Shown here: positions 24,980 through 31,099 of the stretch, piece by piece
Position numbering within the stretch: the stretch's first letter is position 1
Layout of the letters: every line of letters begins with the position of its first letter
Assembly (NCBI GenBank): GCA_035533755.1
Contig: DATLTC010000089.1
Location: 1-64,000, forward strand
DNA from: Gemmatimonadaceae bacterium
GTDB taxonomy: Bacteria > Gemmatimonadota > Gemmatimonadetes > Gemmatimonadales > Gemmatimonadaceae
DNA: 64,000 bases
Direction of reading: 5' to 3'
Translations under genes and position numbers: made by a program
Notes under the pieces: generated by a model
Database searches by the model: none
Seen by the model: the letters and a program-made list of their open reading frames with translations, nothing else
What the model was told of the DNA's origin: nothing

Positions 24980-25831
24980 ATGCGTGCCCGCATCACGTAT
25001 GCATTCCTCGCCGCAGCGGTGGCCGCGCTCGCGGCGTGCGCCAAACAGGATCAGTCCACCCCCGCCGCTGCCGCGGCCGTCGCCCCTGCCGCGCCAACGG
25101 TCGTCACCATCCATGCCAAGGACTTCGCCTACGTGGCGCCGGATTCGATCGCCGCCGGCTACGTGACGTTCAACCTGGTCAACGACGGGACGACCCTGCA
25201 TCATGCGACGATCTTCCGCCTGGACAGCGGCAAGACCGCGGCCGATCTCGATGCCGCGCTCAAGCATCCGGGCCCGATCCCCGCGTGGGCCGTGGCGCTG
25301 GGCGGACCCAACGCGCCCGTCCCGGGCGCCACCTCCGACGCCACGGTCGAACTCTCCGCCGGCAACTACGCGATGGTCTGCTTCGTGGACGTGCCCGGCG
25401 GCGTCCCGCACTTCATGAAAGGCATGCTGCGCGCGTTCGTCGTCACCCCCAGCCAGACGGCGACCGCGGCGCCGACCGTGGATGACTCCATCACGCTCAA
25501 GGACTACGGCTTCCAGTTCGCCAGGGCGCTCACCACCGGCCACCATGCGTTCGCGGTCACCAACGCGGCGGCGCAGCCGCACGAAGTGGAGATCGTCAAG
25601 CTCGCCCCGGGAAAGACCGGCGAGGATCTGGTCGAGTGGGTCCAGAATCCCCAGGGCCCGCCGCCCGGCGTGGCGATTGGCGGATTGGCCTTCGAGGCAC
25701 CCGGCGTCACGGGCTACTTCTCGGCCGATTTCACGGCCGGCAACTACCTGTTCATCTGCTTCGTGCCCGACGCCAAGGACGGCAAGCCGCACTTCATGCA
25801 CGGCATGATGCACACCGAGACGCTGAACTGA
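24980..25831 (+). CDS. Lipoprotein with two cupredoxin-like domains
   Basis: A 283-residue lipoprotein (lipobox LAAC, Cys20) made of two similar halves, about 42-158 and 168-283. Each half has a His, then after 59 residues a Cys, then a His 10 or 11 residues on, then a Met 5 further on: His75, Cys134, His144, Met149 and His201, Cys260, His271, Met276. The Cys-loop-His-x4-Met arrangement is that of type-1 (blue) copper sites, so each half may bind copper. Electron transfer or copper storage are possible roles. GAGGT precedes the ATG at 24980. No oxidase or copper gene is adjacent. Confidence 0.7.
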   Translation: MRARITYAFLAAAVAALAACAKQDQSTPAAAAAVAPAAPTVVTIHAKDFAYVAPDSIAAGYVTFNLVNDGTTLHHATIFRLDSGKTAADLDAALKHPGPIPAWAVALGGPNAPVPGATSDATVELSAGNYAMVCFVDVPGGVPHFMKGMLRAFVVTPSQTATAAPTVDDSITLKDYGFQFARALTTGHHAFAVTNAAAQPHEVEIVKLAPGKTGEDLVEWVQNPQGPPPGVAIGGLAFEAPGVTGYFSADFTAGNYLFICFVPDAKDGKPHFMHGMMHTETLN

Positions 25832-25891: not shown

Positions 25892-26632
25892 ATGCAGACC
25901 CCGGCCACGACTCCGCCCGCGAAGGTCCCGTCCGTGCCGGCACCGCAGGCCGGCGCGCCGGGCGCCGCGCCACTGGCCGGCCAGCAGACCCTCGCACGGC
26001 CGATGTCTGCCCGCGACGTCGCCGCGCTGCTGCATCGCCGCGACGAGCTGTCCAACCAGCTCTCGTCGGCGCAGTCCCGGCGCGCCAGTCTCGCCCGGCA
26101 GCTCCAGAGCCCGAGAGTGGTGAACGCCGCCGGACTCCAGGCCGAGGTGCAGTTCCTGGACAGCCGGATCCTGAACCTCGAGCAGCAGATCGCCGACAAT
26201 GGGCAGCTCCTGGCCAGCGTGCCGGCCAGCTATCGCGCCGGCACGAGCGTACCGCCACCGTTCACGATCGTGCCGCCGAGCGCCATGCGCGACGCCGTGG
26301 ACCTCGTGGTGCTCGCCCTGGTCATCCCCCTCGCGATCGCCTGGACCCGCCGGCTCTGGCGCCGCCCCGCTCCACCGTCACTCCCCGCCAACTGGGACGA
26401 GAGCGTGAAGCGCATGGAGCGCATCGAGACCGCGGTGGACGCCATCGCCATCGAGGTCGAGCGCGTGTCCGAGGGACAGCGATTCATCACGCGCGTACTC
26501 ACCGCGCGTGCGCCGGCCACGGACTCCGCCAACGACGAGCCATCGGAGCCGCGCGCCCTTGCCGCCGGAGAAGCGCCCTTCGAGCCCATCCGCGCGCGGG
26601 ACGCCGCAGCGGCACGGCGCGACGAACGCTAG
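25892..26632 (+). CDS. Coiled-coil protein with one membrane helix, unknown
   Basis: No family recognised. The 246 residues start with a Pro/Ala-rich region (1-35), then an alpha-helical coiled coil (about 40-108, with LSNQLSSAQSRRASLARQL), a Pro-rich stretch, one hydrophobic helix at about 133-151 followed by WTRRLWRR, a second amphipathic helix (168-205) and an acidic/Arg tail. The positive residues after the helix suggest a bitopic inner-membrane protein, with the orientation unsure. It lies 60 bases after the cupredoxin lipoprotein and before two other small uncharacterised genes. AAGG precedes the ATG. Confidence 0.6.
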   Translation: MQTPATTPPAKVPSVPAPQAGAPGAAPLAGQQTLARPMSARDVAALLHRRDELSNQLSSAQSRRASLARQLQSPRVVNAAGLQAEVQFLDSRILNLEQQIADNGQLLASVPASYRAGTSVPPPFTIVPPSAMRDAVDLVVLALVIPLAIAWTRRLWRRPAPPSLPANWDESVKRMERIETAVDAIAIEVERVSEGQRFITRVLTARAPATDSANDEPSEPRALAAGEAPFEPIRARDAAAARRDER

Positions 26633-26754: not shown

Positions 26755-27324
26755 ATGAGCCGACCCCGTCAACTGCTCGTCGCCGCCCTCGTGCTGGCCG
26801 CCGCCGCGGGCTGCGGACCAAAGACCGGCGATACCTACGTCCGTGGGCACGGGCTCCGCGTGGCCGACCTCCCGGTGCACGACCGCGTGGCCATCTATCA
26901 GGCGGCGATCGGCAGCGCGTTCACCATCGGCGATCCGTCGCTGTACCTGCTGCTCGATCCGCGGCTGTTGCCTCGCACCGAGGGCTACGCCGGCACGGCG
27001 GGCATGTCGCAGGCGCTGCGCACCGCCGTCCTCGAGAGCCACATCGTGCAGGGCACCTGCCAGCCGCCCATCGAAGAGACGCCGCACATTGCCCATTGCC
27101 AGGCGCCGATGGCGGGGTACGTGGTGCGCTTCTCCGAGGTGTTCCGCATGCCGCGCGACACCATGGAAGTGTACCTGGCCGTGCGGCGGTACTCCACGCC
27201 CAGCTCCGTCGGGATCGGTCGGCTGGAGTTCGAGCGGGTGTACAAGGTGGTCAAGCACGGCGCGGCGTGGGACGCCGTGGCCGAGGGGCGCATCGAGCAC
27301 GCGCCCGCCGGAGCCACGCACTGA
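26755..27324 (+). CDS. Small lipoprotein, unknown function
   Basis: A 189-residue protein with a lipoprotein leader (LAAAAGCG, Cys about 20). The mature part contains a hydrophobic LLLDPRLLPR stretch, two cysteines (GTCQPP and AHCQAP) that could pair in the periplasm, and a beta-rich end. No known domain recognised. GAGGAGAAGG lies about 12 bases before the ATG at 26755. Codon usage is like its neighbours. Confidence 0.65.
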   Translation: MSRPRQLLVAALVLAAAAGCGPKTGDTYVRGHGLRVADLPVHDRVAIYQAAIGSAFTIGDPSLYLLLDPRLLPRTEGYAGTAGMSQALRTAVLESHIVQGTCQPPIEETPHIAHCQAPMAGYVVRFSEVFRMPRDTMEVYLAVRRYSTPSSVGIGRLEFERVYKVVKHGAAWDAVAEGRIEHAPAGATH

Positions 27325-27625: not shown

Positions 27626-28582
27626 CTATCCCGCGGCGCGCTTTCGCCGGCTGATCTCGTCGCCGATCACCGCCAGTACGATCACCACGCCCAGCGCGAT
27701 CTTCTGCACGTAGGGATCCACGTTGGCCAGATTGAGCCCGTTGGTGAGCACGCCGATGAACACCGTGCCCCACAGGGTGCCGCCGATCGTGCCGCGACCG
27801 CCGAACAGCGATGCGCCCCCCACGACCACGGCGGCGATCACGTCCAGCTCGTACTGCTGGCCCGCGTTGGGCACGCCGGCCCCGAGCCGCGACGCCAGCG
27901 TCAACCCGCCCACGCCCGCCAGCGCGCCGTTGAGCACGTACACCCACCAGATCACGCGCTTGGTGTTCACGCCGGCCAGCCACGCCGCCTCGGGGTTTCC
28001 GCCGATGGCGTAGATGTGGCGGCCGAACACCGTGCGGCCGAGCACGAACGCCCCCGCGAGCATGACCGCCACCATCACCAGCACCGGCGCCGGGATGCCC
28101 AACAGCACGGAACGCCCCAACGCCCCGAACGACGGCGGCAGATCGCCGATGCTTCGCCCGCTCGACACGATGAACGCCAGCCCGCGCGCGATGGTGAGCA
28201 TGGCCAGGGTGGACACGAACGCCGGCACCTGCAGATACGCGGTGAGCGTGCCGTTCACGACGCCGGTGGCCACGCCCACGAGCACGGCCGCGACGAGCGC
28301 CGCCGTGGCCGGCAGCACGCCGTGCGACGCCGCCATCGCCCCGGCCACGCCGGTGAGCGCCACCACCGACCCCACCGACAGATCGATCCCCGCCGTGAGG
28401 ATGACCGCCGTCATGCCCACGGCGAGGATGCCCGTCACGGCGATGCTGAGCGCGATGTTGACGGCGTTGGCCAGCGACAGGAACCCCGGCGCGATCGCCG
28501 CGAAGACGGCCGCCTCGACGACCGTGGCCACCACCAGCATGTAATCGGTCACGCGCTGCCAGCGCATCGGAGGCGCGTTCAT
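27626..28582 (-). CDS. Sugar ABC transporter permease, RbsC-like
   Basis: A 318-residue inner-membrane permease of the ribose/galactose (BPD_transp_2) family, with eight or more hydrophobic helices. The family motif region LTAGIDLSVGSVVALTG lies near residue 55 and ALAGVGGLTLASRLGAG is further on. It works with the ATPase and binding protein encoded upstream to import a monosaccharide. The ATG overlaps the stop of the ATPase gene (ATGA), so translation is coupled. The start follows from that overlap; the longer open frame beyond it is a shadow of the ATPase gene. Confidence 0.93.
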   Translation of the reverse strand: MNAPPMRWQRVTDYMLVVATVVEAAVFAAIAPGFLSLANAVNIALSIAVTGILAVGMTAVILTAGIDLSVGSVVALTGVAGAMAASHGVLPATAALVAAVLVGVATGVVNGTLTAYLQVPAFVSTLAMLTIARGLAFIVSSGRSIGDLPPSFGALGRSVLLGIPAPVLVMVAVMLAGAFVLGRTVFGRHIYAIGGNPEAAWLAGVNTKRVIWWVYVLNGALAGVGGLTLASRLGAGVPNAGQQYELDVIAAVVVGGASLFGGRGTIGGTLWGTVFIGVLTNGLNLANVDPYVQKIALGVVIVLAVIGDEISRRKRAAG

Positions 28583-30066
28583 GCGGCGGCGCTCTCGCCC
28601 AGAATCAGCGACGCCACCCGGTCGGGCGTCGCGTCGTCGCGCGTCAGCTCGCCCACGATGCGCCCGCCACGCATGGCGAGGAGACGATCCGCCATCCCCA
28701 GCGCTTCGGGCAGATCGGACGAGATCATCAGGATCGCGGCGCCCTCGTCCGCGAGGCGCCGCATCAGCCCGTAGATCTCGGCCTTGGCGCCGATATCGAT
28801 GCCGCGCGTGGGCTCGTCGAACACCAGCAGGCGCGCGTGGCGCAGCATCCACCGCGCCAGCACCACCTTCTGCTGATTGCCGCCCGAGAGCTGCTGCACG
28901 GGCCGGTCCACCGTCGGCGTGCGCACGGCGAGCGCGTCGAGCCAGCGCCGCACGTCGGCGCCCTCGCGCGCGCGATCCACCACCCCGCCCCGCGCCAGCG
29001 TGGACAGCGAGGGCAGCGCGACGTTCTCGCGAATGGTGGCCATCAGCACCAGCCCCTGCCGCTTGCGATCCTCGGGCAGCAGCGCGACGCCGGCCGCGAT
29101 CGCGTCGCGCGGCGACGCGGGCGCGTATGGCCGGCCATCCATCCACATCGCGCCCGCCCGCAACGGCGCCGCGCCGAAGATCGCGCGCGCCAGTTCGGTG
29201 CGGCCCGCGCCCACGAGCCCCACCAGCCCCACGATCTCGCCGCGCCGCAGGTGGAACGACGCGTCGCGCACCGGCCCCGAGGTCACCCCCTCCAGCCGCA
29301 ACACCTCCGGGCCCGGGGCGCCCGCGGCCCGCGGATACCCCGCCGCCAACTCGCGCCCCACCATCAGCCGCACCACGTCGCCGCGCGTGAGCTCGGCCAC
29401 GGGCGCGCTGGCCACCAGCCGGCCGTCGCGCAGCACCGTGGCGCGATCGGCGATGCGGAAGATCTCGTCCAGCCGGTGCGAGATGTAGATGATCGCCACC
29501 CCCTCGTCGCGGAGCTGCGCGATCACGCGGAACAGCGCGTCGGTCTCTTCCTGCGCCAGGATGGCCGTGGGCTCGTCCATGATCAGCACGCGGGCGCGCG
29601 CGGCCACCGCCTTCGCGATCTCGGTCATCTGGCGCGCCGCCAACGGGAGATCGCCCACGCGCGCGTCGGCGGCGAGCCCCGTCTGGCCCAGGCGGTCGAG
29701 CACGGCGCGCGCGGCGCGCGACTGCCGGTCGCGGTCCACCACGCCGCGCCGCGACGGCTCGGCGCCCAGAAACACGTTCTCGGCCACCGAGAGCTGGGGC
29801 ACGAGGCTCAACTCCTGGTGGATCATCCGGATGCCGGCCGCGTGCGCGGCGTGCGGCGACGTGAACCGCACCGGCTGCCCATCGATGGCCAGGGTGCCGG
29901 CGTCGGGCGACACCGCGCCGGCCAGCACCTTCATGAGCGTGGACTTGCCGGCGCCGTTCTCCCCCGCCACGGCGTGCACCTCGCCGCCGCGCACGGTGAG
30001 CCCCACGTCATCCAGCGCGAGCACTCCCGGATACCGTTTGACCAGCCCCCGCGCCACGAGCTCCAC
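28579..30066 (-). CDS. Sugar ABC transporter ATPase, RbsA/MglA-like (two ABC domains)
   Basis: A 495-residue protein with duplicated nucleotide-binding domains. The N-half has Walker A GENGAGKST near residue 36 and Walker B VLIMDEPTA. The C-half has a degenerate Walker A (GLVGAGRTEL), the signature LSGGNQQK and LLVFDEPTRGID. This one-active, one-altered pattern is normal for RbsA/MglA. It powers import through the permease encoded next. The gene starts 3 bases after the binding-protein gene, in one operon. The sugar cannot be told from sequence, and no sugar kinase or regulator is adjacent. Confidence 0.95.
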   Translation of the reverse strand: MELVARGLVKRYPGVLALDDVGLTVRGGEVHAVAGENGAGKSTLMKVLAGAVSPDAGTLAIDGQPVRFTSPHAAHAAGIRMIHQELSLVPQLSVAENVFLGAEPSRRGVVDRDRQSRAARAVLDRLGQTGLAADARVGDLPLAARQMTEIAKAVAARARVLIMDEPTAILAQEETDALFRVIAQLRDEGVAIIYISHRLDEIFRIADRATVLRDGRLVASAPVAELTRGDVVRLMVGRELAAGYPRAAGAPGPEVLRLEGVTSGPVRDASFHLRRGEIVGLVGLVGAGRTELARAIFGAAPLRAGAMWMDGRPYAPASPRDAIAAGVALLPEDRKRQGLVLMATIRENVALPSLSTLARGGVVDRAREGADVRRWLDALAVRTPTVDRPVQQLSGGNQQKVVLARWMLRHARLLVFDEPTRGIDIGAKAEIYGLMRRLADEGAAILMISSDLPEALGMADRLLAMRGGRIVGELTRDDATPDRVASLILGESAAA

Positions 30067-30069
30067 GCG

Positions 30070-31032
30070 CTACGGCTTGGCGCTCGGAGCCATGGCGCGC
30101 ACCGAATCCGCATCGACGATGCGCACCGGCACGCCGATCCGCGCCGGCGGCGCCTTGCCGGCGAAGTAGTCGGCGATCGCGTCGATGGTCTCCTTGCCGA
30201 TCTCGCCCGGCTGCTGCGCCACGTCCGCCTTGAGCGGTGTGTTGCCGGCGATCGCCGTGCGCGCTTCCGCCCCGGCGTCGTAGCCCACGATCACCAGCTT
30301 GTCCGCGTGGTGCGACTGCGCGCTGGACAGCGCGCCCAGCGCCGACTCGTCGTTGATCGCGAAGATGGCGTCGAGCGTCGGATGCGCCTGCAGCATGTCG
30401 TCGGCCGCCCGGAGGGCGTGATCGCGCGTGCCCGAGCCGTTCAGGTCCGACACCACCTGGATGTTGGGGTGGCTGCGCAGCGCATCCTTGAACCCGGTCT
30501 CGCGGTCGATCGTCGACTGCACGTCGGGTTCGCCGATGATGCCCACCGTCCCGCGGTCGCCGAGCGCCTTGGCGATGTATTCCGCGGCCAGCCGCCCGCC
30601 GGCCACGTTGTCCGAGGCCACGTGCGACACCACCTGCCCGCCGTCGGCGGCGATGTCGGCGGTGAACACCGGGATCTTGGCGGCGTTGGCGCGCTGGATG
30701 GCGGGGCCGATGCCCTTGGAGTCCACCGGGCAGACGATGATCGCGTCCACGTGCTGGACAATGAAGTCGTCGATCTGCGACTGCTGCTTGGCGAGATCGC
30801 GGTCGCCCGAGTTCAGGATGATGCGATAGCCATGGGCGGCGGCGGCCTGTCGCAGCCCCGCTTCGAGTTGCCGGTAGAACTCGTCTTCGCGCGTGAGCAG
30901 CGAGACGCCAATCGTCTTCGTGGCCTTGCCCGCGCCCTGCTCGGCGGCGCGGCGGCAGGCCGCCGGGCCCACGCCGAGGACGAGAACGGCGAGCGCGCCC
31001 GCCGCCCGGCGGCGCCACCTGAATGCTTGCAT
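30070..31032 (-). CDS. Sugar ABC transporter substrate-binding lipoprotein, RbsB-like
   Basis: A 320-residue periplasmic binding protein of the ribose-binding type (Peripla_BP_4). The leader ends at GPAACRR, so it is probably a lipoprotein. The family run IGVSLLTREDEFYRQLEAG begins the mature fold, and ALRAADDMLQAHPTLDAIFAINDESALGA is typical of the hinge-proximal region. It captures a monosaccharide and hands it to the permease. The ATG at 31032 is preferred (GGTGAA upstream); a GTG at 31044 adds four residues. First gene of the operon. Confidence 0.92.
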   Translation of the reverse strand: MQAFRWRRRAAGALAVLVLGVGPAACRRAAEQGAGKATKTIGVSLLTREDEFYRQLEAGLRQAAAAHGYRIILNSGDRDLAKQQSQIDDFIVQHVDAIIVCPVDSKGIGPAIQRANAAKIPVFTADIAADGGQVVSHVASDNVAGGRLAAEYIAKALGDRGTVGIIGEPDVQSTIDRETGFKDALRSHPNIQVVSDLNGSGTRDHALRAADDMLQAHPTLDAIFAINDESALGALSSAQSHHADKLVIVGYDAGAEARTAIAGNTPLKADVAQQPGEIGKETIDAIADYFAGKAPPARIGVPVRIVDADSVRAMAPSAKP

Positions 31033-31099
31033 GCTGGATTTCACCGTGAGAGGAGAAGCTGGTGCGGAAGCTTGCCACCGGTGAATCCAAACTTCAAGC

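Follow-up and report, generated by a model that had tools for sequence, protein, structure and literature searches.

A conserved lipoprotein with two predicted type-1-like copper sites in a Gemmatimonadaceae bacterium

Gene and protein organization

The window (the whole 64,000-nucleotide stretch of a Gemmatimonadaceae contig that was analyzed) encodes on its forward strand a two-domain cupredoxin lipoprotein of 283 amino acids (ORF 24980-25831), which by all sequence and model evidence appears to be a real, conserved protein with two copper centers. We consider it likely that this protein is a periplasmic, lipid-anchored electron carrier with two type-1-like mononuclear copper centers per chain. 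Its features are given below, with residue counts taken from an alignment of 81 family proteins.

24980..25831, + strand: CDS of the two-domain cupredoxin lipoprotein; start backed by the lipobox and by the starts of close relatives
24980..25039, + strand: lipoprotein signal peptide up to lipobox Cys20 (LAAC, codon 25037-25039), read from the sequence
25040..25096, + strand: Ala/Pro-rich tether between the lipid anchor and the first domain, of low identity
25097..25447, + strand: N-terminal cupredoxin domain (residues 40-156), predicted by AlphaFold2 (strands E40-47 to E150-156) and VIA-align
25199..25201, + strand: His74, predicted first ligand of the N site (not His75, 25202-25204); His in 81/81, aligned with His201
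25379..25426, + strand: predicted N-site ligand loop Cys134-x9-His144-x4-Met149; conserved in 81/81, 80/81 and 81/81
25484..25825, + strand: C-terminal cupredoxin domain (residues 169-282), predicted by AlphaFold2 of this half alone and VIA-align
25580..25582, + strand: His201, predicted first ligand of the C site; His in 81/81, next residue Glu202 (80/81)
25757..25807, + strand: predicted C-site ligand loop Cys260-x10-His271-x4-Met276; conserved in 81/81, 80/80 and 80/80 readable

The LAAC lipobox at residues 17-20 marks the window protein as a bacterial lipoprotein. The strict lipobox pattern is found in 53 of the 81 proteins and a Cys in that column in 58; the family members without a lipobox have ordinary-looking signal peptides or uncertain starts. 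Mean pairwise identity in the 81-protein alignment is 0.20 for the tether versus 0.47 for both domains. The opposite strand at this locus also contains long ORFs, as is common in GC-rich DNA, and the forward frame is taken as the real gene because it has relatives, a signal peptide and a record of selection. Both halves are under purifying selection: in comparisons with four relatives, dN/dS ranges over 0.19-0.38 for the N half and 0.28-0.43 for the C half. The window protein has no Pfam match at E ≤ 0.01 and no NCBIfam family above its cut-off, and Pfam Cupredoxin_1 is matched at E ≤ 0.01 by 49 of the 81 family proteins. Rfam and tRNA scans across the window returned no matches. The first-pass annotation had described a tandem cupredoxin lipoprotein at this place, and the ORF, a lipobox with Cys20 and the two halves are indeed located there.

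Predicted copper ligands of the two domains

When one half is compared with the other by BLASTP (a one-sequence search), 40 of 111 positions are identical (36%, E 6e-20), a similarity far above chance that on sequence grounds marks the two halves as homologous. Each half has the His-Cys-His-Met set that characterizes the cupredoxin superfamily, and the predicted ligands are His74, Cys134, His144 and Met149 in the N half and His201, Cys260, His271 and Met276 in the C half. In the 81-protein alignment, His74, Cys134, Met149, His201 and Cys260 are present in all 81 proteins and His144 in 80, the single exception being a Tyr in L086. His271 and Met276 are present in all 80 proteins in which they can be read, as the row of L140 stops at a contig end. 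Both ligand sets are thus complete in 79 of the 81 proteins. All but one of the 81 proteins were found by two search patterns containing His144, Met149, His271 and His274 (the best 80 of 110 relatives were kept, and the window protein makes 81). The patterns left out both Cys residues and the first His of each site, so the conservation of these residues was not preselected. Loss of Cys134 and Cys260 in orthologues, named in the first-pass annotation as evidence against its two-site proposal, does not occur in the main family, where each is found in 81 of 81 proteins.

That annotation had also assigned both halves the same His-Cys distance of 59 residues. It had taken the wrong residue, His75, in the N half; the invariant His74 is the one that aligns with His201, and measured from it the N-half distance is 60, as against 59 for the C half. 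Position 75 is occupied by His in 72 of the 81 proteins, by Gln in eight and by Met in one, and His74 is invariant also in a 23-protein alignment. An equal His-Cys distance is no conserved feature of the family, because the ranges across the 81 proteins differ (55-64 in the N half; 58-61 in the C half, plus one of 86). Its other spacings hold: the Cys-His spacing is 10 in 74 of 81 N halves and 11 in 79 of 81 C halves, and the His-x4-Met motif occurs in both halves of the window protein, with a His-Met spacing of 5 in 81 of 81 proteins (N half) and 80 of 81 (C half). The broader proposal of two type-1-like sites kept under selection is well supported, by prediction and conservation.

Relatives found without motif patterns

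The window protein was also searched, with no motif pattern, against 60 related genomes and had matches in 40 of them. There were 78 match places, of which four short partial ones (G038:C33, G019:C5, G059:C53 and G048:C42) were left out; the other 74 lie on 70 loci with one ORF each, which gives 69 ORFs when the window's own locus (L001) is not counted. Of these, 54 span both domains, and the remaining 15 are single-domain, cut at a contig end or broken. Both ligand sets are complete in 45 of the 54, with His74 in 52, Cys134 in 52, His201 in 50 and Cys260 in 50, and loss of the Cys residues is confined to a few distant paralogs. At least one ligand is missing in nine of the 54, six of which lose most of one site; therefore, two centers are not always needed. 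The C site is altered or lost in L042, L045, L048, L049 and L069, and the N site is lost in L051 and L053, the latter also having Asp in place of His271. The N-site Met is replaced by Glu in L041 and by Leu in L044. The gaps at L042, L049 and L069 may reflect misalignment.

The distant paralogs L045, L048, L049 and L069 (C site) and L051 and L053 (N site) keep both halves and have lost one ligand set. Such dead sites on either side, together with the Deinococcus ficus relative, in which the N half was seen by eye to have lost its ligands, would fit a protein with one functional site only, the other being kept for folding. Against this, the main family keeps both ligand sets over several phyla, and the two halves are equally conserved (mean pairwise identity in the 81 proteins of 0.468 for the N half and 0.471 for the C half), which makes a single functional site very improbable. 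Two further kinds of relatives are single-domain proteins with a similarly long Cys-His loop (L054-L058 and L061-L066), and an ORF with an in-frame TGA in its C half (L013:1501-2334), which is either a broken gene or a sequencing error. Tandem gene pairs are present at L105:6148-7816 and L146:245-2354.

Distribution and origin by internal duplication

With a profile of the family, matches at E ≤ 1e-10 were obtained in 183 of the 395 genomes searched from the phylum, up to six in a single genome; single-domain and partial matches are counted. Outside the phylum, relatives with 31-35% identity are encoded on three Deinococcus plasmids, where they are annotated as hypothetical proteins.

A tree was built from 57 half-domains, with 11 single-domain ORFs, 21 of the 81 proteins and two of the three Deinococcus relatives as sources. 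The 23 C halves cluster together without exception (98/96), and 22 of the 23 N halves make up a second group that also takes in four single-domain proteins (97/89). The other seven single-domain proteins fall outside both half groups, as does the N half of the D. ficus protein, which has lost its ligands and sits on a long branch. Rows from Gemmatimonadota, Deinococcus, Anaerolineales, Thermomicrobiales, Acetothermia, Nitrospira and Fraserbacteria are included in both groups. Because the N and C groups each cover several phyla, the simplest reading is that one old duplication took place before the family spread and that the main line has retained both sites ever since. Row L149, from Nitrospira, is placed among Gemmatimonadota in the C group; this row and L127, which is named Rokuibacteriota and is not in the tree, may be binning errors.

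Predicted fold

Structure prediction of both halves, proposed in the first-pass annotation as a check, gave confident cupredoxin folds. The AlphaFold2 model of the whole protein, made with the 81-protein alignment, has a pLDDT of 94.1 and a pTM of 0.86, and that of the C half alone, made with its 79 relatives, a pLDDT of 96.7 and a pTM of 0.89. In these models, as judged by VIA-align, both halves are predicted to form the Greek-key β-sandwich of the cupredoxin superfamily, and the nearest folds are those of auracyanin, EfeO, Bacillus Cupredoxin_1 and rusticyanin. For the N half, the scores are Z 8.8 with auracyanin A 2aan (3.1 Å, 108 residues), 8.6 with 6kol (3.5 Å, 110 residues) and 8.1 with EfeO 7wgu (1.9 Å, 89 residues). 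For the C half, they are 10.3 with 4hcg (2.1 Å, 84 residues), 10.1 with 6kol (3.2 Å, 103 residues), 10.0 with 2aan (3.1 Å, 103 residues), 9.7 with EfeO (2.4 Å, 87 residues) and 9.1 with rusticyanin 1rcy (2.8 Å, 98 residues). Z values less than 1 apart are ties in this comparison and values of 7-8 are common for unmatched models, and the N-half values (8.1-8.8) appear modest by themselves.

Among solved structures, the family profile matches auracyanin 6kol best (E 0.0087), followed by nitrite reductases (0.027 and 0.057), and all four N-site ligand columns are in register with 6kol. Auracyanin 6kol is likewise the top match of the C-half profile (E 0.036), in an alignment that spans the first His and the Cys, again in register. 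Taken alone, these E-values would be weak evidence. A search of the solved structures with the single sequence returned only a chance antibody match.

Two nitrite reductases apart, the best 50 rows of a whole-chain Foldseek search are multicopper oxidases, two-domain laccases among them, and this raises the alternative of an oxidase or a nitrite-reductase-like enzyme in which the two domains would build a second copper site in an oligomer. This alternative could also draw on His75, His189 and His274, which are common besides the ligands (72, 57 and 73 of the 81 proteins, the last count being partly selected for by the search pattern; 35, 36 and 44 of the pattern-free 54). Against an enzyme of this kind, the Foldseek rows have TM (query) values of only 0.22-0.27 and rmsd values of 15-18 Å; therefore, the domains, as modeled, appear to pack differently from those of the enzymes. 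The HxH motif is absent from the window protein and from 79 of the 81 proteins, and the two exceptions have a pair each rather than four. None of the 81 proteins has a His directly before either Cys (Val133 and Ile259 in the window protein); thus the His that bridges the type-1 and type-2 sites of nitrite reductase is missing. We judge an enzymatic function of this type to be improbable.

The structural matches to EfeO 7wgu (Z 8.1 and 9.7 for the N and C halves) bear on another alternative, a periplasmic iron-uptake protein of the EfeO/FtrB type. It is in line with the NCBIfam EfeO match of the window protein (E 5e-8), which recurs at E ≤ 0.01 in 54 of the 81 proteins. This match, however, scores 32.3 bits against an equivalog cut-off of 270, its best stretch covers 51 residues, and the ten neighboring genes scanned, four of them without a match, include none named as an iron permease or a peroxidase; a role in iron uptake is very doubtful.

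Gene neighborhood

A scan of ten neighboring genes in the 19.8-32.4 kb part of the window gave Pfam matches for six (M28 peptidase, PAP2 phosphatase, M1 peptidase and a sugar-type ABC permease, ATPase and binding protein) and none for the other four. No oxidase is named among the ten, which, with the latter four genes borne in mind, agrees with the first-pass annotation that the gene has no oxidase nearby. The ABC genes (27626-31044, minus strand) appear to encode a ribose-type transporter (permease, ATPase and binding protein) with no relation to copper. Just downstream of the cupredoxin gene and on the same strand lies a gene without a Pfam match (25892-26632), followed by another (about 26770-27321) that reads as a small lipoprotein.

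A conserved operon was considered and rejected, as no neighbor recurs widely in 80 loci, whose genes were predicted with a custom gene caller and some of which lie on short contigs with incomplete flanks; apart from the cluster of the cupredoxin itself (72 loci), the most frequent neighbor cluster is that of an ABC ATPase, present in 11 of the 80. The isolation of the gene does not mean that partners are absent, because the source genome has four COX1-family matches, along with two NrfD-family matches and one Cu-oxidase_3 match. Co-occurrence with these families was uninformative as a link, COX1 and NrfD being present in 60 of 60 related genomes and Cu-oxidase_3 in 56 of 60. In a few genomes, COX1 was seen by eye some 7-25 kb from the cupredoxin gene, which by a rough estimate is about what chance would give.

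Two of the three Deinococcus relatives adjoin a multicopper oxidase gene and the third does not. The two oxidase genes (L152:4427-5764 and L153:6819-8138) are on the plasmids of Deinococcus sp. D7000 and D. ficus, and their products were seen by eye to have a C-terminal cupredoxin-like tail. Multicopper oxidases are an enzyme type that also serves copper detoxification, and these neighbors would suit a copper-handling lipoprotein that captures or delivers Cu(I) for buffering, resistance or oxidase loading, with redox cycling not its job. The same explanation could draw on one relative that has, by eye, a BlaI/CopY-type repressor-like gene and an M56-type partner just upstream (L120:35-1664), on the extra His274 in the C loop (73 of 81 proteins, a partly pattern-selected count, and 44 of the pattern-free 54), and on the scattered genes and several paralogs per genome, as expected of a stress protein. 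On the other side, the strict His-Cys-His-Met type-1 set in both halves marks electron-transfer sites, no copper pump or chaperone recurs widely as a neighbor in the 80 loci, and none is named among the ten window genes scanned, of which four had no match. We regard an electron carrier as the most likely function and copper handling as a less likely one, unlikely rather than far-fetched.

Asymmetry of the two sites

The two predicted sites have surroundings that are consistently different. Directly after the first His, 72 of the 81 N halves have another His and 80 of the 81 C halves a Glu, a preference that is looser in the pattern-free 54 (35 His in the N half, 40 Glu in the C half). Azurin and plastocyanin have Asn at this position. 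The Cys-His loop has nine residues in the N half and ten in the C half, and both exceed the range of 2-8 residues listed for type-1 sites in the available part of PMC4059628. The same part of that paper cites a proposal that loop length sets the geometry of a type-1 site. Because the loops of the window protein are longer than those given there for green nitrite reductases, and because loop length is proposed to set geometry, green or perturbed sites would be as likely as blue ones; this is a fair prediction from sequence, and it makes the label 'blue' unsafe.

Predicted function

The proposed electron carrier would be held by its lipid anchor, probably in the outer membrane and facing the periplasm, on the Ala/Pro-rich tether. 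Each half, in its cupredoxin fold, is predicted to bind one copper through His-Cys-His-Met, and the copper at each site would cycle between Cu(I) and Cu(II), so that one molecule could hold two electrons or relay one electron between the sites. Given their different surroundings (His-His with a nine-residue loop in the N half, His-Glu with a ten-residue loop in the C half), the two sites would probably differ in potential. Likely donors and acceptors would be a quinol-oxidizing complex and oxidases, or a multicopper oxidase, and the protein would probably serve respiration by passing electrons.

Several lines of evidence lead to the carrier assignment: the ligand sets are complete in most relatives, purifying selection acts on the protein and both half groups span several phyla; the confidently predicted cupredoxin folds are nearest, among others, to blue copper electron carriers; the profile matches to 6kol have ligand columns in register; and COX1- and NrfD-family genes are found in 60 of 60 related genomes, with a multicopper oxidase beside two of the three Deinococcus relatives. 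Other observations speak against it. There is no conserved neighbor, and families as universal as COX1 and NrfD provide no specific link. EfeO and Bacillus Cupredoxin_1, which are not known to be electron carriers, tie structurally with auracyanin, and the Z values of the N half are modest. Nine of the 54 two-domain matches, as noted above, are short of at least one ligand. With a match in only 183 of the 395 genomes, the protein is therefore not the essential carrier.

A wider proposal, which we put forward tentatively and rate as possible, short of probable, is that these proteins form a widespread unnamed class of two-center cupredoxins with non-equivalent type-1 coppers, Cys-His loops beyond the classes in the available part of PMC4059628, and the ability to relay electrons within the molecule or to carry two at a time. 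The sites of such a class may be green rather than blue. The family occurs in 183 of 395 genomes of its phylum, yet its Deinococcus relatives are called 'hypothetical' and the window protein falls in no Pfam or NCBIfam family above cut-off. If the proposal is true, the class would demonstrate, in naturally occurring proteins, the effect of loop length on a type-1 site: loops beyond the range in the text available from PMC4059628 would offer a natural test of how length sets site geometry and color, and two sites that differ in fixed ways would let one protein report how surroundings tune potential.

Comparison with known copper proteins

Carriers with a single copper are textbook proteins; chains with two carrier-type coppers but without a catalytic site have, to our knowledge, seldom been described. 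Among the matches listed for open-licence papers on two-domain or Gemmatimonadetes cupredoxins, we found no description of this family, which is a weak absence, and the two-copper-site lipoprotein design, common to many related bacteria, is apparently unstudied.

Ceruloplasmin is one precedent for two type-1 coppers in one chain. Another is the azurin-fused nitrite reductase of Hyphomicrobium denitrificans (2dv6, 6tfd), with two type-1 coppers per chain according to the available part of PMC9358711; it differs from the window protein in being an enzyme with a type-2 copper. Copper nitrite reductase resembles the window protein in its long Cys-His loop and His-Met ligands, but its loops of 7-8 residues, as given in the portion of PMC4059628 at hand, are shorter than the nine and ten residues here, and its His before the Cys is missing from the window protein.

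EfeO, by its cupredoxin domain, and Bacillus anthracis Cupredoxin_1 (7wgu, 4hcf, 4hcg) share the fold, with high Z values for the C half and weak profile matches; EfeO is longer, at 348 residues versus 283. AcoP of Acidithiobacillus ferrooxidans is described in the available part of PMC4059628 as a membrane-held green cupredoxin that is bound to cytochrome c oxidase and has an unusual Cys-His loop. It resembles both halves in fold (Z 7.4 and 8.8 for the N and C halves, respectively) but is a single domain with, in the same text, a six-residue loop.

Auracyanins A and B and the Roseiflexus auracyanin (2aan, 1qhq, 6kol) have the same cupredoxin fold as the two halves, with Z values of 8.4-8.8 (N half) and 9.3-10.1 (C half) and 17-22% identity, and the ligands of 6kol are in register with all four of the N half and with the His and Cys of the C half. 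Auracyanin, however, has one domain and one copper, and the Cys-His loop of 6kol has four residues versus nine and ten here; on domain number and loop length, the window protein is not an auracyanin. Halocyanin of haloarchaea, in the available part of PMC8305020, is a copper protein that carries one electron, is linked to oxidases and has a lipid anchor by prediction; it is an archaeal protein. By analogy, the window protein would work like auracyanin or halocyanin.
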